Part shown: positions 4,550 through 51,252 of the stretch, in pieces
Numbering within the stretch: position 1 is the first letter of the stretch
How the letters are laid out: every line of letters starts with the position of its first letter
Origin: a virus
IMG/VR virus record: IMGVR_UViG_3300042544_002864
Location: 1 to 64,000 of that record
DNA: 64,000 bases
Reading direction: 5' to 3' (one strand)
Program-made: the position numbers and the translations under genes
Notes under the pieces: generated by a model
Seen by the model: the letters and a program-made list of their open reading frames with translations, nothing else
What the model was told of the DNA's origin: nothing
Databases searched by the model: none

Positions 4550-5260
4550 TTAAGACATCCAGATAAAGTAACCTTGAAATTCATCTTTGAAGTTAAAACC
4601 ATTATCTAAACAATCACTTATTAGTTTTTTGGCTACTTCATCAGTTAAAATGTTTTCAATTCTATTGGTAAATGCTTCTTTTTTAATTAAATCTGATAAT
4701 TCAATAGAAATATGCTCAGATAATTCAATTTTCTTTTTAGAAAGTTCCTCATATAAATGATCAAAGACATTTGTTAAGATAACATCCATTTCTTCTTTAG
4801 AATAAATAACGACTTCAACATCTTGATTTTCCCAATCATTTATTTTGAATATGTGTTTATCAGCATCAACTATATCAATGTCACCTAAGTTAGTATCAAA
4901 GTGGTCAGCTAAAACTTTTTCCATTTTAGCAGTTGCTTTTTCAATTCCTTTATAAAGACATTGCTTCATTGAATGAATTTTGAACTCTTCTGATTCAAAC
5001 ATCTTGAATGATTCAAATGTTATAACACCATCTTTTTCCATATGGTTTCTATCTTCGATTATATCTTTCAATATCACTTCAGCACCTTTAACATCTTTTA
5101 GTTTATTTCTTTCTAGAAATTTATTAAATCTTTCTGATCCTGGTTGTAAATATCTTTTAAGTGAAGAAGGTCTTATCTTCCACTTATCAATATAATCATC
5201 TACCAAACCATTAATAACTTGGTAGTATCTATTAGCATCTTCTCTAGTATTAATTGACAT
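4550..5260 (-). CDS. hypothetical protein
   Basis: 236 residues, acidic and predicted mostly alpha-helical (for example LEDIIEDRNHME-like stretches and HLYEELSKKKIELSEH). No signal peptide, membrane segment or known catalytic motif is visible. Its start overlaps by 11 bases the end of the tagged CxxC protein upstream, so the two are translationally coupled and probably made together late in infection. Function unknown. Confidence 0.5.
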   Translation of the reverse strand: MSINTREDANRYYQVINGLVDDYIDKWKIRPSSLKRYLQPGSERFNKFLERNKLKDVKGAEVILKDIIEDRNHMEKDGVITFESFKMFESEEFKIHSMKQCLYKGIEKATAKMEKVLADHFDTNLGDIDIVDADKHIFKINDWENQDVEVVIYSKEEMDVILTNVFDHLYEELSKKKIELSEHISIELSDLIKKEAFTNRIENILTDEVAKKLISDCLDNGFNFKDEFQGYFIWMS

Positions 5261-7660: not shown

Positions 7661-8815
7661 ATGCTATTCAGATTTAATAAATTTATTAACGAAGAAGTAA
7701 GAATAGAAAAAATGGACGAGCCTACATTAATTTCTTTAAAGAAGAACTTAATGTTTAGACTTGGCGAGTATCGTACTTATATCTTAGCAAACATTGAATA
7801 TAATTTCACAACTAATAAGGTAGAGTATAAAAACTTCGATAAAATCGATATTCCTGTTATAATAAGAGAATTATCAAATGAATTCACCACTGAAGTAATT
7901 GAGGACCTTAATATAGATTCTTTCTTAAGAAAGCTAAATCAAATAATTGAATTAAGAAAAAGAAACACTAAGAGAAAAGTTAGAGAAGCTTTTGATGAGT
8001 ATTACAAAACAATTGAACAAAGAATAACAAATATCAATAAATCTGGAGAAGCTCCAGATCCTTTTGACCAAATATCAGGAGAAGGTTCTATATTACCAAG
8101 AAGACAATATGAGTCAGAAAAATATCAAATTCAAATAGAGTTACTGAAACTACAAGAGTGGGTTATCAAAAATAAGAAAAAAGTAGCAATTGTATTTGAA
8201 GGTAGAGATGCTGCTGGTAAAGGTTCAACAATTAAAAGATTTACAGAATACCTAAATCCAAGTGGATTTAAGATTGTTGCTTTAGGAATTCCAACAGATG
8301 AAGAAAAGCAAAATTGGTTTGGTAGATATGAAAAATACTTACCAAAAGAAGGTGAAATAGTATTCTTTGATAGAAGTTGGTATAATAGAGCGGTTGTTGA
8401 ACCGGCTATGGGTTATTGTACGGAAGACCAATATGAAAACTTCATGAATAATGTAATTGATTGGGAAGAAAGTCTAATAAAAAGTGGAACAATTTTAATA
8501 AAGTTCTGGTTCTCTATTACACAAGAAAAACAAATAAAAAGATTCGATTTAAGAAAAGAAAGTCCTTTGAAATATTGGAAGTTCTCTCCAAACGATGCTA
8601 AAGTATTAGACAAATGGGAGATAATCGGAAACTATAAAAATCAAATGTTTTCCAAAACATCAAGTAGATTATCACCTTGGGTTATTATAAATTCTAATGA
8701 TAAAAAAATTGGAAGACTTAATGCAATGAGATATGTTATCTCGGAAATAAACTATAAAGATAAAAATCCAAAAATTGGAAACTACTACCCAGAAGTGGTA
8801 AATGTTTTAAAATAA
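7661..8815 (+). CDS. PPK2-family polyphosphate kinase with N-terminal tag
   Basis: 384 residues. The C-terminal 240 residues are a PPK2 domain with Walker A FEGRDAAGKGST (179-190), Walker B FFDRSWYNRAVVEP (236-249), and the lid RKESPLKYWKFS. PPK2 enzymes transfer phosphate between polyphosphate and nucleotides (NDP to NTP, or NMP to NDP in class II/III). The N-terminal 140 residues are extra for the family and begin MLFRFNKFINEE, matching the tag with I-N-E at 9-11, the form T4 prohead protease would cut. The enzyme may be packaged in the head and injected, giving energy or nucleotide supply from host polyphosphate at once. Packaging is inference; the kinase assignment is firm. Confidence 0.9.
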   Translation: MLFRFNKFINEEVRIEKMDEPTLISLKKNLMFRLGEYRTYILANIEYNFTTNKVEYKNFDKIDIPVIIRELSNEFTTEVIEDLNIDSFLRKLNQIIELRKRNTKRKVREAFDEYYKTIEQRITNINKSGEAPDPFDQISGEGSILPRRQYESEKYQIQIELLKLQEWVIKNKKKVAIVFEGRDAAGKGSTIKRFTEYLNPSGFKIVALGIPTDEEKQNWFGRYEKYLPKEGEIVFFDRSWYNRAVVEPAMGYCTEDQYENFMNNVIDWEESLIKSGTILIKFWFSITQEKQIKRFDLRKESPLKYWKFSPNDAKVLDKWEIIGNYKNQMFSKTSSRLSPWVIINSNDKKIGRLNAMRYVISEINYKDKNPKIGNYYPEVVNVLK

Positions 8816-12934: not shown

Positions 12935-13849
12935 ATGGAAAAGACATATCCAATCGGAGCTTTAGTCGGTAGATTCCAAGTTCACGAGCTACATGAAGCT
13001 CATAAATACCTGATTGACCAGGTAGCAGAAAATCACAAAAAAGTAATTTTATTCCTCGGTGTTCCAAAAGTAGTTGGAACCAAAAAGAATCCATTAGATT
13101 TCGATACTCGAAAAAGAATGATTCAACATCACTATCCAGATATTGTAATTTTAGCACTTCCAGATTTTGGAGATGATCGTAGATGGTCTTCTGAATTAGA
13201 TAAGAGAGTTAAAGAAGTTTATCCTATCGGTGAAGTTCTTCTTTATGGTGGTAGAGACTCATTTATCCCTTACTATAAAAGTGGTGGAGGTCATTTCGAT
13301 TGTAAAGAATTAGAAGAATACGGAACATTTGTTTCAGGTACTGAAGTTAGAAAAATGGTATCAGAACAAGTTAAGGATTCAGCTGACTTTAGATCTGGTG
13401 TTATCTATCAATCATATAATCAATATCCAAAAGTTCATCCTTGTATTGATGTTGCTATATTAGATGAATCTGAAGAAAAAGTACTTTTAGCAAAAAGACC
13501 ATTTGAAGATGGTTGGAGATTTATCGGTGGTTTTTCAAAGCCAACTGATGTCTCATATGAACACACTGTTCGTAGAAAGATTTCAGAAGATGCTGGTCAC
13601 AACTTATCGGTAAATCATCCAAGATATATTGGTAGTTGTCAAATTCCTGACTGGAGATATCAAAGTGAGGAAGATAAAATCTTAAGCATACTTTTTATTA
13701 CTAAAAAACAATTTGGTAGAATTGACCCATCTGATGATGTTTCAGAGTTAAAATGGTGGGATATTAGTGAATTAGAAAATGATGAAAAAATTATCACTAA
13801 AGAACATAAAATTTTACTGGATATGTTCCTTAAAAACAAAAAATATTAA
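12935..13849 (+). CDS. nadM: bifunctional NMN adenylyltransferase / Nudix hydrolase (NadM-Nudix)
   Basis: 304 residues. The N-terminal half is a nucleotidyltransferase with GRFQVHELHEAH (residues 12-23, the ATP-binding GRFQ and histidine motif) and the late SGTEVRKMVSE motif of NMN adenylyltransferases. Residues 150-304 are a Nudix domain with CIDVAIL, GWRFIGGF and a Nudix box that departs from consensus: the REUxEExGU stretch reads RKISEDAGH. The enzyme makes NAD+ from NMN and ATP. Together with the NAMPT gene 21 bases downstream it forms a full nicotinamide-to-NAD+ route, the same pair known as NatV/NadV in other large phages. Nudix activity may be altered by the box changes. Confidence 0.9.
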   Translation: MEKTYPIGALVGRFQVHELHEAHKYLIDQVAENHKKVILFLGVPKVVGTKKNPLDFDTRKRMIQHHYPDIVILALPDFGDDRRWSSELDKRVKEVYPIGEVLLYGGRDSFIPYYKSGGGHFDCKELEEYGTFVSGTEVRKMVSEQVKDSADFRSGVIYQSYNQYPKVHPCIDVAILDESEEKVLLAKRPFEDGWRFIGGFSKPTDVSYEHTVRRKISEDAGHNLSVNHPRYIGSCQIPDWRYQSEEDKILSILFITKKQFGRIDPSDDVSELKWWDISELENDEKIITKEHKILLDMFLKNKKY

Positions 13850-13870: not shown

Positions 13871-15454
13871 ATGAGCTTACAAAGACAAATCACTAGAAAG
13901 TTAGAGAAAGCAATTCTTGATAAAGATTGGACCTCTATTGAAGGTATTCAAAAACACCTTACAAAAATCATCACAAAACCAGATAACTTAATTCTGTGTA
14001 CAGACGCATATAAGTACTCACATCATAAGTTTTATGGTAGTGAAATGACTAAAATGATTTCCTATATGGAATCTAGAGGTGGTAAATTCTCTAAAACCGT
14101 ATTCTACGGATTACAAATCTTCTTAAAACAATATTTAGAAGGTGTTGCCATCACAAAAGAAGAAGTTGACGAAGCATTTGACTACTTAGGTACTAAACAC
14201 GGTGTATTTGGTAGAGAAGATGTTTTCGATAGAAGTAAATTTGATTACATCGTTGATAAATACGATGGTAAATTACCTATCAGTATTAAAGCTGTTCCAG
14301 AAGGAACCGTGGTTGACGCAAAGAATGTACTTTTCACAATTGAAAGTTTAGATGAAAATTGTGCTTGGTTAACTAACTTCTTAGAATCACTTTTATTACA
14401 AGTTTGGTATCCAATTACCGTAGCAACTCTTTCAAGAGAAGTAAGAGTAATTGTTACAAAAGCGTTCAAAGATTGCACAAGTTACGATGATGAATTGATG
14501 AACATTATGATTGACTTCGTTCTAAACGACTTTGGATTCCGTGGTGTATCTTCTGTTCAATCAGCAAAAACAGGTGGTTCAGCTCACCTTGTAAACTTCT
14601 TAGGATCTGATACGGTTATCGCTTCTAAGTTAATCAGAGACGTTTATAACACAGAACGAGTTTATGGACTATCTATCCCAGCTACAGAACACTCTATTAT
14701 GACTCTTAAAGGAGAATCAGGTGAGTTAGAACTTATGAAAAGAGTTCTAACAACGTTCCCTACTGGATTAGTAGCTTGTGTATCTGACTCATTTAATATC
14801 TTTAGAGCTTGTTCAGAATATTGGGGAACAGAATTGAGAGATTTAGTTCTTTCAAGACCAGCAACTCCGGGTAATCAGTTAGTAATCAGACCTGACTCTG
14901 GTCACGTTACTAGAACATTAGTCGAAGTATTCAACATCTTGTTTGATAAATTTGGATACACCGTTAATGAAAAAGGTTACAAAGTACTTCCTCCACAAGT
15001 AAGAGTTATTCAAGGTGATGGTGTTAATCTTAACTCTATTCAAGAAATCTATGATATCTTGAAATCTGAGAAAATCTCACCAGAGAACTTAGCATTGGGT
15101 ATGGGTGGTAAATTGTTACAAGCTGACATCAACAGAGATACTAACAACTTTGCAACTAAAGCTTGTTCGGCAATTGTTGATGGTGTAGAAGTGGATGTTG
15201 TTAAATCACCTACTGAAATGGATGAAAATGGAAACATTACTAAATCATTCAAGAAATCTAAAAAAGGTAAATTGAAATTGGTTAAAAATGAAGATGGTTC
15301 TTATAGAACGGTTACATCAAGTGACCCAGATTTTGATAATGTTAAAGATGAATTAACTGAAGTCTTTAGAAGTGGAGTTATCACAAAAGAATGGACCTTT
15401 GAAGAAGTTCGTGATAGAGCTAAAGTTGAGACACAAATTGAAGAAATGGTTTAA
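13871..15454 (+). CDS. nadV: nicotinamide phosphoribosyltransferase
   Basis: 527 residues, full length for the NAMPT/NadV family. Recognisable features are TDAYKYSHHKFY near the N-terminus, MESRGGKFSKTVFYGLQ, the FRGVSSVQSAKTGGSAHL stretch, and the PRPP-site region LVIRPDSGHVTRTLVEV followed by VIQGDGVN. It joins nicotinamide and PRPP to give NMN, which the preceding gene turns to NAD+. Phage NAMPT plus NMN adenylyltransferase has been described as NAD+ reconstitution pathway 2, able to reverse NAD+ depletion by host defences. The operon starts at the host-type promoter at 12908 and ends at the hairpin after 15454. Confidence 0.93.
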   Translation: MSLQRQITRKLEKAILDKDWTSIEGIQKHLTKIITKPDNLILCTDAYKYSHHKFYGSEMTKMISYMESRGGKFSKTVFYGLQIFLKQYLEGVAITKEEVDEAFDYLGTKHGVFGREDVFDRSKFDYIVDKYDGKLPISIKAVPEGTVVDAKNVLFTIESLDENCAWLTNFLESLLLQVWYPITVATLSREVRVIVTKAFKDCTSYDDELMNIMIDFVLNDFGFRGVSSVQSAKTGGSAHLVNFLGSDTVIASKLIRDVYNTERVYGLSIPATEHSIMTLKGESGELELMKRVLTTFPTGLVACVSDSFNIFRACSEYWGTELRDLVLSRPATPGNQLVIRPDSGHVTRTLVEVFNILFDKFGYTVNEKGYKVLPPQVRVIQGDGVNLNSIQEIYDILKSEKISPENLALGMGGKLLQADINRDTNNFATKACSAIVDGVEVDVVKSPTEMDENGNITKSFKKSKKGKLKLVKNEDGSYRTVTSSDPDFDNVKDELTEVFRSGVITKEWTFEEVRDRAKVETQIEEMV

Positions 15455-17029: not shown

Positions 17030-17587
17030 TTAATCTTTTCCCCCAAACATTTTTTGATAAGCTTTTGTAGCAGCAGATTTTTTAGTTTTAACTCTTTTAC
17101 CTTCACCACCTTTACCACCGGTATAGTCAGCATCCCAATCTTTTTTGTACTCTTTTTTACCCCTGAATGTGTCAATTTCTTTTTTCATTTTACCTGGATT
17201 TTTAGTTAGATATTTTCCAGGAATTTTACGACCTTTATATTTTTGAGCCTTAACTCTTTCAGAAATTCCTAGTATACCTTGAATGTCTTTTTCTATCATA
17301 TCTAACCCTTCGTCCATTGACTCAACATTAGTTTGGAAATCAATAACATCACCGGCAGTTTTAGTGATATATAAATCGTCTATATCAAATTCATATTTAA
17401 CAGACAATTCACCAGTTGAAAAACTAACAGATAACTGATGGTCTTTTTTATTCTCCCATTCATATATCATGTTTTGACCATCTGATACACTATCAACCAA
17501 ATCTTTAAGTTCCTGCATTTTAGCGTCTATTAGGCTATCCGGATTATTTACGAATTCTCTAATAAATTGATTCCATTTTTTTATCAT
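17030..17587 (-). CDS. tagged basic protein
   Basis: 185 residues from the ATG at 17587, preferred over the longer open frame because it gives MIKKWNQFIRE, with I-R-E at 9-11 (the T4-type cleavage form), and lies 4 bases after an exact late-type motif. The C-terminal 60 residues are rich in Lys, Gly and Arg (for example KRVKTKKSAATKAYQKMF), suggesting DNA binding in the capsid. First gene of the four-gene tagged operon. Confidence 0.6.
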   Translation of the reverse strand: MIKKWNQFIREFVNNPDSLIDAKMQELKDLVDSVSDGQNMIYEWENKKDHQLSVSFSTGELSVKYEFDIDDLYITKTAGDVIDFQTNVESMDEGLDMIEKDIQGILGISERVKAQKYKGRKIPGKYLTKNPGKMKKEIDTFRGKKEYKKDWDADYTGGKGGEGKRVKTKKSAATKAYQKMFGGKD

Positions 17588-26033: not shown

Positions 26034-26273
26034 ATGAGAACACTAAAAGAGTTATACAATGCTAATGTGGATGTCAGAGACTCTGATATTCCAGTTGAAT
26101 GGAAAGAAAGTTTTGGCAAGTTTATGATGGGTCAAACATGTTCTGCTGAAGTCGATGAAGATGGTACAATAAAGGAGTTTATTTACTACGCTTGTGATTT
26201 CAGAGGTTGGTACTTCCAAAATAAAGAAGCTATTGAAAGAGATATTAAAATAGATAACGTATTAAAGAGTTAA
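26034..26273 (+). CDS. small hypothetical protein
   Basis: 79 residues, starting MRTLKELYNANVDVRD and containing SFGKFMMGQTC and CDFRGWYFQNKEA. No membrane segment. Its start is 4 bases from a host-type -7 box, so it may be translated from a leaderless early mRNA. The last 12 bases overlap the end of the convergent gene 26262-28133. Function unknown. Confidence 0.5.
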   Translation: MRTLKELYNANVDVRDSDIPVEWKESFGKFMMGQTCSAEVDEDGTIKEFIYYACDFRGWYFQNKEAIERDIKIDNVLKS

Positions 26274-28133
26274 TAATAAGTATAACTTTTCAATTTCTTT
26301 TCTAAATGAAGAATAATCAAATGATTTACACATTCTATAAAGTGCTCTGATATATCTGTAATCTAATCTCAACATCTTCTTATATTTAAGATTCAAATCT
26401 CCATCACCTGTTAATTTCTCTATTTCTGAAGTAAATAGAGAAACTTTACTACTTGTGCTAAGACTTTCTGTGAATGTTATTGCGGCTAATAAAGATGGTA
26501 TCATTTCCTCTGGTGTTAGTAATTCAGAAGAGTCCATACCCCAATAAACATTTTTTAAACTTTTTACATAGACTTCATTTGACTCTATAGAAGAAATGAC
26601 TTCTTTAGTGTTTAACTCACCACTTTTATAACTATCATATAGTTTTTTCTTAACCTTTTGAACTAATTCACGATGTTCACAATCATCACCTGGGAATAAC
26701 TCTTCTCTTATCTTATGGTATAATAAATCTCCCCAAGTCATTGTATCACTTCTATTTTCTTTCTCATCTATAAAGTGATATTCACCAGTATATGGATCTT
26801 TTATATAACTTTTTCTCAAAAAGTATTTAGTCTCACCTACTATTATTTGTTCTATATAAAGGTCTGTTCTAGATTTAACTAACCAATCAGTATCATTTTT
26901 TGATATCTCAACTTCTATTACTTGTTCATTATCAGGATAAAGGTAATCGTTCATAACTTCAGAATAAACAGCATCATCTTTATAAAAATTCTCACTATGG
27001 TACTCTGACCAAACTACATCCTCATTAGGGTAAGCCCATTCATCTTTATAATCTAAATAAGTGGCATCATCTGTGTAAACATAACTATTAATATTTTCAC
27101 ACCAAACCGAACCTTCTCTACTAATATGTTCGCCATACCACTCAGACCAAATACCATCTTCTTCTTCAAAACCACCACTCGTATCTTGAATCTTTATATA
27201 ACCTTGGCCTGGCCATAAATCTTCATCATCTCTTAAAATTTTAGTTGTGGGATTATAAACAACAAATGTATCCATATAAGGATATTTCTCATAAGTGTGA
27301 TCTCCTAATTTAACTTCTAAGTAGTGTGTGTTTTCATCTGAAACTCTATATGAGTTTTTTATCATCCATTTCTCAAAAAAATCATTAAATAACAATCTAT
27401 CTGAATCATTTATAGTATAGATTCTATCCATAAAATAAGAGTCATCTGTTAATTTCCAAATTAAAGCTCGACCTGTTATTTTATCTTTATTGTCCTCTGA
27501 TTTTAATATAAGTAATTGACAGACCTCTGGATTTTTAACATAAATATCTAAAAAATTTTGACAACTATTATATCTCATACAAGAATTTCCTAATTGACCT
27601 CTTCTTTCAAGATAATTGTTTTCATGATACCATTTTTTAATATCTTCCCCATTTACCAACTCAAAGTTATTAATATCACCATCAACAGCCGCCTTATATT
27701 GGTTTACAAATGTTTCTATATCAGAATCGGTAATAGAAGATTTATGTACTTCAGTCACTATTCTTCTAAGCCATCTACCAATACTTATCTCCGTTCTACC
27801 TTTATTCCAAAATTCATTTGATTTATCATTAGTTATATTTCTTGGAAGAAAATAAACATCATCATTAGGATATGTTTTTGTATCTGGGTTGGATCTTAAA
27901 ATTCTATTTACTTGAATAAAAGATATTGTATCATTCTTATCAGTGATATCAACTAAAGTGTAGATATCAGTAATTTGATTAGAATCTTCAGCGGATAATA
28001 AAAATTTAGCATACTTATTATTTTTAGAAACTTTGTCTAAAAGTTTTCTAAACTCATCAGAGTAATAAAGTCTCATCTCTTTTTTAGCAACAGCTTCAAA
28101 AATAAAGTCTAAGTAGTTAGATAGAAATCTCAT
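26262..28133 (-). CDS. tagged large protein of GSCM family with YxE/WSE repeats
   Basis: 623 residues starting MRFLSNYLDFIFEAV, a long tag variant with I-F-E at 11-13. The core (about 140-290) has FELVNGEDIKKWY, GQLGNSCMRYNSC (Cys near 188), GRALIWKL and FMDRIYTINDSD, and is plainly homologous to the core of the gene at 11237-12469. After it come several short repeats of about 20 residues with the pattern V-(W/Y)-S-E-x4-x(Y/F)-x2-D-D-A (positions about 330-400). The conserved Cys and the paired presence suggest an enzyme family of unknown reaction, with different C-terminal modules giving different targets. Late-type motif 3 bases before the ATG. Confidence 0.55.
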   Translation of the reverse strand: MRFLSNYLDFIFEAVAKKEMRLYYSDEFRKLLDKVSKNNKYAKFLLSAEDSNQITDIYTLVDITDKNDTISFIQVNRILRSNPDTKTYPNDDVYFLPRNITNDKSNEFWNKGRTEISIGRWLRRIVTEVHKSSITDSDIETFVNQYKAAVDGDINNFELVNGEDIKKWYHENNYLERRGQLGNSCMRYNSCQNFLDIYVKNPEVCQLLILKSEDNKDKITGRALIWKLTDDSYFMDRIYTINDSDRLLFNDFFEKWMIKNSYRVSDENTHYLEVKLGDHTYEKYPYMDTFVVYNPTTKILRDDEDLWPGQGYIKIQDTSGGFEEEDGIWSEWYGEHISREGSVWCENINSYVYTDDATYLDYKDEWAYPNEDVVWSEYHSENFYKDDAVYSEVMNDYLYPDNEQVIEVEISKNDTDWLVKSRTDLYIEQIIVGETKYFLRKSYIKDPYTGEYHFIDEKENRSDTMTWGDLLYHKIREELFPGDDCEHRELVQKVKKKLYDSYKSGELNTKEVISSIESNEVYVKSLKNVYWGMDSSELLTPEEMIPSLLAAITFTESLSTSSKVSLFTSEIEKLTGDGDLNLKYKKMLRLDYRYIRALYRMCKSFDYSSFRKEIEKLYLLLTL

Positions 28134-28166: not shown

Positions 28167-28191
28167 AAAATCCTCTTATTTAGAGGATTTT
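28167..28191 (-). terminator. rho-independent terminator overlapping stop codon
   Basis: Stem AAAATCCTCT / AGAGGATTTT with AAATA loop and T-run on the minus strand. It includes the stop codon of the tagged HAD gene. Confidence 0.7.
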
Positions 28192-29279
28192 ATTACTTTC
28201 TTTTTCCTTTTCTTAGTACCGACAATATCACTCGATGTTTTAGCTAAGAATTTAGTTTGTCTTTTGAATTGATTTGCAAAATCATCTTGTCTTTGATCTT
28301 GACCTATTGGATTTAATTGACCAGCCATATTACCAAATTGTGTAAATTTTAATACTGACCCTTCCATACCTGGATTTTGTTGAGACGTTTCAGTTAATAC
28401 CTCTTTTGATACAACTTTTCTAGTTATATTTAGAGGATCTTTAGTTCCCTTAACAACAAAAGAAACAATATTTGGAAATCTTTCGTGATTTAATTCAATC
28501 ACATGTTCCATATGTTCTTTATTTTTATTATCATCATCTGAGAATCCAAGTTTTGCAACCCAATGGTCTCCAGAGTTAGAGTTCAACTCATCGATGAAAC
28601 TATTTACTTTTTCAGTAAACTCTAAAAATACATCTTCTTTAGCTTTTTCAGGATTACTAGGAGAACCACCTCTTGAAGGAGATGAAACACCAACGAAATC
28701 ACAATTATCTAAATAAACTTTAATCAACTCATTTTGAGATGGTTGACCTTTTAGTATTTTAGATGAATCTTCTTTATCAACTCCGAAGAAATAAGCATAT
28801 TTCATTACTTGATTATACATTTGATATAATTGTTCTTCACTTAAAACATTATCTATAATCCACTCAACACCTTTTCTCATTGGTCCAGATTCGTGACCAC
28901 GAGCAGTAATGATTGCGAATAATGACCCATTTGATAAACATTCAACAAAGTCATCCCAAGCTGGTCCGAAACTACCACTTGATATAGCTTTTTTAACATC
29001 CTCTGTAAAGATTGACTCCCCCATAGGACCACTATCTCTGAAATTAGAAAAAGCCTCTGATGGATCATTGTTTATAACTCTCCAATTTTCAGAATCTCCT
29101 CTAACCTCTGCGAATTCCGCAGTAGAGATATCAATAGGATTCCAAGAATCACCATCTCTTTTCTCCATGTGAATAACAGTTGGCATGTTTAATATATTAT
29201 CATCCCAGTCAAAAGCATAGTAAAGTAGATAATCTGATTCTCTACTTTCTTTAATAAATTGACCAAATTTCTTAACCAT
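28176..29279 (-). CDS. tagged HAD-like phosphatase/hydrolase
   Basis: 367 residues starting MVKKFGQFIKESRES, with I-K-E at 9-11 (T4-type cleavage form). A HAD fold follows: motif I DWDDNIL (Asp 24 and Asp 26), motif II SLFAIITARG, and motif IV LGFSDDDNKN. The acceptor Asp sits only 13 residues after the predicted cleavage site, so processing would leave the active site intact. The C-terminal 100 residues (GMEGSVLKFTQFGN, then basic) are a separate tail found in large-phage virion proteins. The substrate is unknown. It would dephosphorylate a small metabolite, nucleotide or protein. Confidence 0.7.
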   Translation of the reverse strand: MVKKFGQFIKESRESDYLLYYAFDWDDNILNMPTVIHMEKRDGDSWNPIDISTAEFAEVRGDSENWRVINNDPSEAFSNFRDSGPMGESIFTEDVKKAISSGSFGPAWDDFVECLSNGSLFAIITARGHESGPMRKGVEWIIDNVLSEEQLYQMYNQVMKYAYFFGVDKEDSSKILKGQPSQNELIKVYLDNCDFVGVSSPSRGGSPSNPEKAKEDVFLEFTEKVNSFIDELNSNSGDHWVAKLGFSDDDNKNKEHMEHVIELNHERFPNIVSFVVKGTKDPLNITRKVVSKEVLTETSQQNPGMEGSVLKFTQFGNMAGQLNPIGQDQRQDDFANQFKRQTKFLAKTSSDIVGTKKRKKKVIKSSK

Positions 29280-49401: not shown

Positions 49402-51252
49402 ATGATAAAAAAATATCAAAACTTCCTGAACGAAGAAGTAGGTCTTAAAAACATTTCTAAGATAGCGAAACTTTACAAAACTGCTGAAATTTATTTCCAC
49501 AAAGACTTAGATGGTGTTACATCAGCTATCGCTATGAAAGAATTCTTAAAGAATTATTATCAAATAGAAACGGTTGATTGTCATATTATTCAATATGGTG
49601 GATTGGAATACGCTGTTAAAAATCATAAAGAAGGAAATCTTTGTGTCTTAGTTGACTTTGCTCATGGTAAACCAATGTTTCATATTGCAACTGACCACCA
49701 TGATAAACAATCAGGTGCTGAAGATACTCAATCTACTTATTTCAAACACACTCGTTCAAATGTTGAAACTATTTCAGGTGAGATTTCATATTCTGATATT
49801 TTCACTCACGAAGATATTGAATTAATTAAAACAGTTGACTCTGCTAACTTTTTAGCAAATGATATCAAACCAGAAGATGTTCAAAATTCTATCTTCTCTA
49901 CTAATAAAAATCTTTCTCCTTCTAAAAATAGATTTATGATGGGTTTTGTAGTTAATAGATTATTATTAGCTTATAAAAATAAAAGAATTACAACTAAATC
50001 ATTAGATGGTAAAAGAAACCATATCAATAGAAATATACTTGAGTGTTTAACTTTAGATTCTACTGGTAGTTTATATTCAATGTTTAATAACCTTAAAAAT
50101 TATATCAACAATGCTAAAACTACTGATAAGTTAGGAAGATTAGCAACTCCAGAAGAAATCAAAGCTAACTTAAGTGACTATATTGATAGAATGAAAAACT
50201 ATAGTTTCATTGAGGATCCTAGTACGGGAGATGTTTCCGAATACGATCCAACTAACTGGAGACATAAAAAAATGTTAGATACTGGAGCTCAAATTGGTAA
50301 AGGTGTTCACTTTGATGAGGAATATAACATAGTTACTCAATATGGTGGTGGTTCAATGATTAAAGCTGGTTCTTATGACAGATATGTTGTTTTCAAAAAC
50401 AACCCTAAAGCAGATTTCAATTGTATTGCTTGGCCAATGGGTTTATTACAAGTTTCTTGTAACCCATTTAAGGAAAAAGCGTTAAAGGAAATTAACTTAG
50501 GTGAAATTGCTAAAGAAGTTTTAGCTAAACACGAGTCGATTCTTAAAAGATTCTTCGTTTCTTTAGAGTCGATTAAAAAAGAATTTGAAACATCTCAAGA
50601 TTGGAAAGCAATGGCTAAAGCAGAAGGTGATGATTATGAAGGAGTAGGATTTAAATTTAGTGATTTAGAAGCTTTCTACAAAGATTGTTTATTTGAGAAA
50701 AAAGATAATAATGTTGTTAATGTTGATATTAATGATCCAAAACTAAGAAGTAGTATGAATACTTTATTCACTGACCTTACACCAGATCAAAAATTCTACC
50801 TAAGTAGTATTAAAATTCCAGCTTGGGAACTTATCATTAGAAACTCAGGTGGACATCCATCAATTACTAACATTACAGGTTTGAATTTCTTAAAATATAA
50901 TAAAGCGGCTCTTAAAATAGCGTATAAAACAGAAAAGTATGTTGATGTTCTTAAAACATTAGCTAAAGATTTTGTAAATGTTCTTAAAACTAAAATTGAT
51001 ATTGCTAAAGAAGGTGGTCAAGTTGAGTATGATACTAAAGGAGTTGAGTTACTTGGACAAGATACAAATGAGAATTTTGATTATCAAATTGTTGATAAAG
51101 TAAGTGGTCAACCCGTTTCAGTTACAAAGGATCAATTCTTAAAAGCTGGAGCATCTAAAGGAATGAAAACTGATAGAAAAAGTTTGATGAGTATTGATAT
51201 GGTGAATAAGAAAGTAGTTGCTAAGTTTGAAAATTTTAATATTAAAAAATAA
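49402..51252 (+). CDS. tagged DHH-family phosphoesterase
   Basis: 616 residues starting MIKKYQNFLNEEVG, with L-N-E at 9-11. The DHH fold follows: HKDLDGVTSA (33-42), CVLVDFAHG (Asp 85), TDHHDKQ (DHH at 98-100), and the DHHA1-type GGHPSIT near residue 480. DHH enzymes cleave phosphodiesters in short RNAs, cyclic dinucleotides or act as exonucleases. A packaged copy could destroy cyclic-nucleotide defence signals or RNA at once on entry; this is inference. The end KFENFNIKK echoes the tag. It overlaps the convergent gene by 11 bases. Confidence 0.75.
   Translation: MIKKYQNFLNEEVGLKNISKIAKLYKTAEIYFHKDLDGVTSAIAMKEFLKNYYQIETVDCHIIQYGGLEYAVKNHKEGNLCVLVDFAHGKPMFHIATDHHDKQSGAEDTQSTYFKHTRSNVETISGEISYSDIFTHEDIELIKTVDSANFLANDIKPEDVQNSIFSTNKNLSPSKNRFMMGFVVNRLLLAYKNKRITTKSLDGKRNHINRNILECLTLDSTGSLYSMFNNLKNYINNAKTTDKLGRLATPEEIKANLSDYIDRMKNYSFIEDPSTGDVSEYDPTNWRHKKMLDTGAQIGKGVHFDEEYNIVTQYGGGSMIKAGSYDRYVVFKNNPKADFNCIAWPMGLLQVSCNPFKEKALKEINLGEIAKEVLAKHESILKRFFVSLESIKKEFETSQDWKAMAKAEGDDYEGVGFKFSDLEAFYKDCLFEKKDNNVVNVDINDPKLRSSMNTLFTDLTPDQKFYLSSIKIPAWELIIRNSGGHPSITNITGLNFLKYNKAALKIAYKTEKYVDVLKTLAKDFVNVLKTKIDIAKEGGQVEYDTKGVELLGQDTNENFDYQIVDKVSGQPVSVTKDQFLKAGASKGMKTDRKSLMSIDMVNKKVVAKFENFNIKK

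Follow-up and report, generated by a model that had tools for sequence, protein, structure and literature searches.

A Mahaphage-type class I polyphosphate kinase bearing a T4-like capsid-targeting tag, a candidate for packaging in the virion

Enzymes packaged in the virions of other phages include T4 Alt, the phiKZ-type vRNAP, head-packaged ARTs and Nudix proteins, for all of which delivery at time zero is either established or presumed. In T4, Alt and the internal proteins IPI, IPII and IPIII carry a short N-terminal propeptide, the capsid-targeting sequence (CTS), which is cut by the prohead protease gp21 after L/I-x-E, and this cargo is delivered into the host. The first ten residues of IPIII are required for incorporation, and amber suppression has mapped targeting mainly to residues 4 and 7 and processing to residues 8 and 10 (PMC9026906). 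The same source describes CTS fusions that carry beta-galactosidase into E. coli, a role for IPIII in assembly in addition to ejection, and the removal of a propeptide of 65 residues from gp23.

Phage-encoded polyphosphate kinases (PPKs) are themselves already known. Virus-encoded ppk1 and ppk2, found as here on viral contigs, have been classed as auxiliary metabolic genes (PMC13188868, which also cites a 2025 Water Research paper on them); the portions of these sources available to us describe storage-related metabolism and mention neither an N-terminal tag nor packaging. The largest complete phages reported by Al-Shayeb et al. 2020 (PMC7162821) are all Mahaphages, for which replication in Bacteroidetes is predicted, and the word polyphosphate is absent from the main text of that paper. 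We found no packaged PPK, and no CTS expansion in huge phages, in the literature that we searched, where none of the virion-packaged enzymes of other phages is a polyphosphate kinase. The preliminary description of this locus likewise knew of none. Because only open-access literature was covered, this absence is weak evidence.

The window analysed here, 64,000 nucleotides within a 65.8-kb viral record, is a fragment of a Mahaphage-type megaphage with Bacteroidota-type hosts. It encodes a polyphosphate kinase 2 (PPK2) that is 77% identical to that of a 155-kb IMG/VR contig and 71%, 65% and 47% identical to those of LR745206 (634 kb), LR756502 (642 kb) and LR756501 (735 kb), respectively. The gene and its parts are:

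7661..8815, plus strand: PPK2 open reading frame with an ATG start codon, encoding a 384-aa class I polyphosphate kinase 2 with an N-terminal capsid-targeting-like tag
7661..7693, plus strand: the tag, residues 1-11 (MLFRFNKFINE), with a predicted cut after E11; F5/F8 correspond to Y4/F7 of the T4 CTS, and I9/E11 to I8/E10
7694..8092, plus strand: phage-specific folded extension, residues 12-144, without a Pfam match
8093..8776, plus strand: catalytic domain, residues 145-372, from the Pfam match, the alignment to Francisella PPK2 (FtPPK2) and the fold match
8201..8227, plus strand: Walker A, GRDAAGKGS, in which alignments equate D183 and K187 with FtPPK2 D62 and K66
8369..8389, plus strand: Walker B, DRSWYNR, in which D237 and R238 equal FtPPK2 D117 and R118 and N242 is the class I signature Asn

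Residues 147-369 match the Pfam family PPK2 (PF03976) with 265 bits, and the score for TIGR03707, the class I-type PPK2 model, exceeds its curated cut-off (308.5 against 301.8). The nearest solved structure is FtPPK2 (4YEG, 5LLB), with 50% identity over 240 residues and an rmsd of ~1.3 A; in a Foldseek comparison, the catalytic part of an AlphaFold model of the phage enzyme (44 aligned sequences, mean pLDDT 89.8) fits FtPPK2 with an rmsd of 1.3-1.4 A over 240 columns. Both Walker motifs are shared. The polyphosphate-binding set of FtPPK2, K66/R118/R178, is complete in the phage protein as K187, R238 and R298, and the class I signature Asn, which is placed after Walker B (PMC8776046), is present as N242 in DRSWYN. 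Since D183, K187, D237, R238 and R298 are invariant in 44-47 aligned phage and bacterial PPK2s, activity appears to be under selection.

With its catalytic and binding residues conserved and the signature Asn present, the active site looks intact and should therefore prefer transfer from polyphosphate to NDPs, giving NTPs; the transfer itself is inferred from these residues, without an enzyme assay. The class I reaction is reversible. NDP phosphorylation is preferred by most of the class I enzymes that have been characterised (75-fold in PPK2A), while at least one prefers polyphosphate synthesis. The preliminary description had recognized intact PPK2 motifs, as the alignments bear out, and an enzyme that makes NDPs and NTPs. 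Of this, the step from NDP to NTP stands, as the substrates of class I enzymes are NDPs and not NMPs.

Unlike FtPPK2, the phage enzyme has a phage-specific N-terminal part of ~144 aa that includes the 11-residue tag. Residues 1-11 are the sole segment of at least three residues with a pLDDT below 50 in the AlphaFold model, and they coincide exactly with the tag. From about residue 20 to 128 the extension is confidently folded; by alignment and model, what follows the tag is a folded helical/beta domain common to phage PPK2s. The tag that was earlier described on an N-terminal extension is thus there, but comprises only the first 11 of its ~144 residues.

The N-terminus of the protein, MLFRFNKFINEE, matches both of the mapped T4 targeting aromatics at equal spacing (F5 and F8), and these are followed by an (L/I)-x-E prohead-protease site, I9-N10-E11. 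The T4 sequence MKTYQEFIAE has Y4, F7, I8 and E10, and the strict motif used here to define a class A tag, ^M.{1,5}[FYW]..[FYW][ILVM].E, requires these four at identical spacing. Applied to T4 itself, the strict motif returns two internal proteins beginning MKTYQEFIAEA and one other ORF, and its core also matches FGSFLTE, residues 59-65 of gp23. One feature counts against the match: the P1' residue is Glu in the PPK2 tag and Ala in the T4 tags seen here. The comparison differs also in the cargo, a metabolic kinase, and in its extent, with 24-57 tagged ORFs per megaphage genome against a handful in T4.

At annotated starts, the strict motif occurs in 4/75 ORFs of the window (shuffle mean 0.11) and in 25/906, 24/935 and 46/972 ORFs of three complete megaphages (residue-shuffle means 1.1, 1.1 and 1.2); the latter counts rise to 31, 27 and 57 when other early in-frame methionines are allowed. 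As a control, internal methionines of the same three genomes gave 2/2696, 7/2849 and 6/3483. The start-anchored enrichment is 20-40 fold. A (hydrophobic)-x-E signature is ~3-fold enriched at residues 9-13 in all of these genomes and is flat in RaK2. Reciprocal-best orthologs of tagged genes keep the tag in 80/122 cases, compared to 42/1944 for untagged genes. For PPK2, it is kept in 5/5 compared orthologs, down to 47% identity (MIFDFNKFINEE, MPVYNFHKFINEE, MINNFIKFINEE and MISNYDNFMNES), and F8, N10 and E11 are invariant within an otherwise variable stretch. Given both enrichment and conservation, we reject chance as the source of the PPK2 tag, and the packaging-type tag of the preliminary description is confirmed to that extent. 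Some other tagged ORFs are chance matches. DnaB, for example, was considered as cargo and rejected; its orthologs are untagged.

A profile scan found PPK2 relatives on at least 298 viral contigs and many bacterial ones. The strict tag is present in 19 of 30 distinct megaphage-type PPK2s, and an [ILVMF]xE ending at residues 8-14 in 28 of them. The corresponding numbers for 76 bacterial PPK2s are 1, a chance match, and 10 (Fisher 2e-12 for the strict tag, with no correction for shared ancestry). In the PPK2 tree, the main bacterial clade is separate from a side that holds every phage sequence together with a few bacterial ones.

It is unlikely, in light of these data, that the PPK2 is simply one more auxiliary metabolic enzyme, synthesized during infection, with an N-terminal motif that is unrelated to packaging or fortuitous. 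Such an enzyme would have precedent in the viral ppk genes known from metagenomes, the motif is short, and the window encodes two NAD-salvage enzymes nearby that carry no tag:

12935-13849: NAD-salvage nucleotidyltransferase-Nudix protein, untagged
13871-15454: NAD-salvage nicotinamide phosphoribosyltransferase (NAMPT), untagged

However, a short motif of no consequence does not sit well with a 20-40 fold enrichment at starts or with its retention in all five orthologs. The tag is also nearly absent from bacterial PPK2s, and the lack of a tag on neighbouring metabolic enzymes can be read against a merely metabolic role as well as for it.

Further evidence comes from the head genes of the relatives. 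A weak but significant S77 match in the three complete megaphages (W01, W02 and W03) forms the N-terminus of a protein of 699-807 aa:

W01:198546-200669: prohead protease-scaffold fusion (L011) with tag-motif array
W02:225272-227371: prohead protease-scaffold fusion (L010) with tag-motif array
W03:73913-76336: prohead protease-scaffold fusion (L009) with tag-motif array

The S77 protein is linked by tblastn to proteins annotated as prohead proteases in many T4-like phages. H85 and S140 of T4 gp21, which we take to be its catalytic residues, are conserved in all three megaphage proteases, as is the aligned Asp. In its middle part the fusion contains 11-14 copies of [YF]xx[YF][ILV]xE (YSEYIAE and similar), mostly with a 14-residue period; it is the protein richest in this motif in each complete genome, and its neighbour is the gene for the major capsid protein. 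T4 has an S77 protease with the same catalytic His and Ser, but in the megaphages it is fused to a scaffold of tag-like repeats. The array is present in five relatives, the three above and two more (L317 in G003 and L316 in G008) that were examined for the array only. The array is absent from T4, RaK2, G002 and G006, and the latter three, searched in the same way as T4, have no strict motif at annotated starts. RaK2, first considered for a test by proteomics, encodes the protease without such tags and served as a negative control.

The 65.8-kb fragment includes none of the protease, scaffold and capsid genes, so the link from the window PPK2 to head machinery runs through the relatives. A scaffold built of the tag motif and attached to the very protease expected to cut the tag provides strong circumstantial evidence, from sequence comparison alone, for prohead loading. 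The 735-kb phage encodes two more proteins of interest:

W03:11314-11850, minus strand: second S77 paralog (L012), with the catalytic His replaced by Tyr and SSR by RPR
W03:21458-26533, minus strand: 1691-aa protein in which the tag motif is again arrayed, as seven FVKY(L/I)xE-like copies

Because of its two replacements, the paralog is predicted to be dead, and it may possibly serve as a regulator or decoy.

Sphingomonas phage PAU (JQ362498) offers a check in an isolate. About 20 of its 286 ORFs begin with MK[TSG][LI]xxLYE(A/S) or a close variant, ending L-x-E (shuffle mean 0.84). The carriers of this tag (MKTxxxLYEA) include the scaffold and, of five genes labelled internal capsid protein, four (gp142, gp154, gp199 and gp270; hypergeometric P 8e-5); these labels are the depositors', and the record gives no basis for them. 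PAU has a related capsid protein (25%) and, like the megaphages, a lineage-specific tag ending in L-x-E, on proteins annotated as internal. However, the tag sequence differs from megaphage class A, and no PPK2 was found in PAU.

Taking these lines together, we consider it probable that the PPK2 is an active class I enzyme with a T4-type CTS that is loaded into the head, trimmed, ejected with the DNA and used to make NTPs from polyphosphate. The sequences themselves establish the intact signature of the enzyme, the identity, conservation and enrichment of the tag, the scaffold array and the catalytic residues of the protease; docking, cleavage, packaging, ejection, direction and benefit are all inferred. 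Late in infection, the tag would dock PPK2 on a prohead scaffold that itself consists of tag-motif repeats, and the S77 prohead protease would cut after FINE, between E11 and E12, freeing the folded enzyme inside the head. In the next infection, PPK2 would be ejected along with the DNA, and with host polyphosphate it could then phosphorylate NDPs to NTPs (ADP/GDP to ATP/GTP) in advance of any phage gene expression. This might support early transcription and replication, or offset nucleotide-draining defences. We infer the presence of PPK2 in virions with good confidence, although packaging has not been demonstrated; that it is ejected and uses host polyphosphate for NTPs is an inference that we favour only slightly. 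Delivery of the enzyme with the DNA, as first suggested in the preliminary description, is supported without having been shown, by the T4 CTS match, the conservation among orthologs, the motif array of the scaffold and the internal capsid proteins of PAU. To our knowledge, none of the largest known phages is in culture, and no virion proteomics for this phage group was found in the literature.

If correct, this would be the first virion-delivered polyphosphate kinase, as far as our literature search showed, and a case of a phage bringing its own enzyme to tap host phosphate and energy reserves ahead of gene expression. A simple rule, a start-anchored [FYW]xx[FYW][ILVM]xE plus a matching scaffold array, would allow the proteins packaged by the largest known phages to be read from sequence, and would make the question of which proteins megaphages inject testable.

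The tag could also send PPK2 to the prohead core as a passive or structural component, or as an enzyme of use in assembly only, rather than as a useful injected enzyme. T4 IPIII has a role in assembly as well as ejection (PMC9026906), and the unusual folded extension of phage PPK2s could be a structural domain. We regard this as distinctly unlikely, as the catalytic residues, invariant across the 44-47 aligned PPK2s, indicate selection for activity. Quite improbable, in our judgement, is a packaged PPK2 that runs in reverse, from NTPs to polyphosphate, whether for starving the host, for signalling to it or for binding ions in the head. The reversibility of class I enzymes, the preference of at least one of them for synthesis, and a proposal that viral ppk increases polyphosphate storage would allow it, but phosphorylation of NDPs is the direction that most class I enzymes characterised so far prefer, PPK2A by 75-fold. 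Finally, the tag could direct proteins elsewhere in the infected cell, for example to a replication compartment, with the scaffold resemblance coincidental. Tagged proteins are indeed many and varied, and a further tag (class B, below) is in use in these phages, but the match to the residues mapped in the T4 CTS, the array in the scaffold and the PAU internal capsid proteins make this very improbable.

Packaging of PPK2 would place it among many other tagged proteins. The window encodes four more with a class A tag:

17030..17587, minus strand: tagged protein (MIKKWNQFIREF, from an internal start), tagged in 4/4 orthologs
26262..28133, minus strand: tagged protein MRFLSNYLDFIFEA
28176..29279, minus strand: tagged protein MVKKFGQFIKES
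49402..51252, plus strand: tagged DHH-family protein MIKKYQNFLNEE, tagged in 4/4 orthologs

Further tagged proteins include methyltransferases, DHH proteins, two RNA ligases like T4 Rnl1 and two 2H phosphoesterases with similarity to Acb1. The CTS-tagged 2H/Acb1-like phosphoesterases and Rnl1-like RNA ligases of two megaphages (L035:8260-9573, L144:13776-14312, L036:10485-11744 and L145:11690-12958) are likely injected counter-defence cargo. More tentatively, with somewhat less than even confidence, we propose that Mahaphages inject a large protein kit (24-46 exact and up to ~57 CTS-tagged ORFs per genome), assembled on a protease-scaffold with a tag-motif core, in which PPK2 would act as the energy module and make NTPs from host polyphosphate at time zero, accompanied by the counter-defence-type RNA ligases and phosphoesterases.

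A second, distinct N-terminal tag, class B, is of the MKHLKxFE type, with hydrophobics at positions 4 and 7 and no L-x-E. Class B ORFs number 88 in W01, 112 in W02, 25 in G001 and 13 in the window, and only 6 in W03.

Positions 5250, 15492, 15890, 16593, 24957, 31561, 48957, 52314, 60382, 60844 and 62583: class B tags in the window

The classes are kept apart, and the idea that class B is the same as class A was rejected, because orthologs rarely swap between them (5 pairs, with 7.7 expected by chance). The packaging-type tag of the preliminary description probably merged the two; what we retain of it is class A, the CTS-like tag that PPK2 carries.

Other phage PPK2s begin differently. Members of a second group, some in phages with a T4-like gp21 (G002, G006), have other N-termini such as MRNLLTEVSKMKNIMGLTE followed by ADK. 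In a third group (L184-L200, L206-L209), junctions resembling (I/L)xE followed by GFFD separate an unrelated N-terminal part from the PPK2 extension, and these are possible prohead-protease sites, judged from the residues alone. The N-termini of both groups would fit other targeting signals, which are not established. No single regular expression described the tags of G002 and G006, where attempts gave only 1-2 matches and several other N-terminal families are present; G002 has many N-termini of the forms MKKxIRLTESDLxxIIKRVIxE and MKYIITESQ. The PPK2s of L198-L233 (for example L221 and L226), in phages with a T4-like gp21, begin with MxxLLxEVxxIKxIMGLxE.
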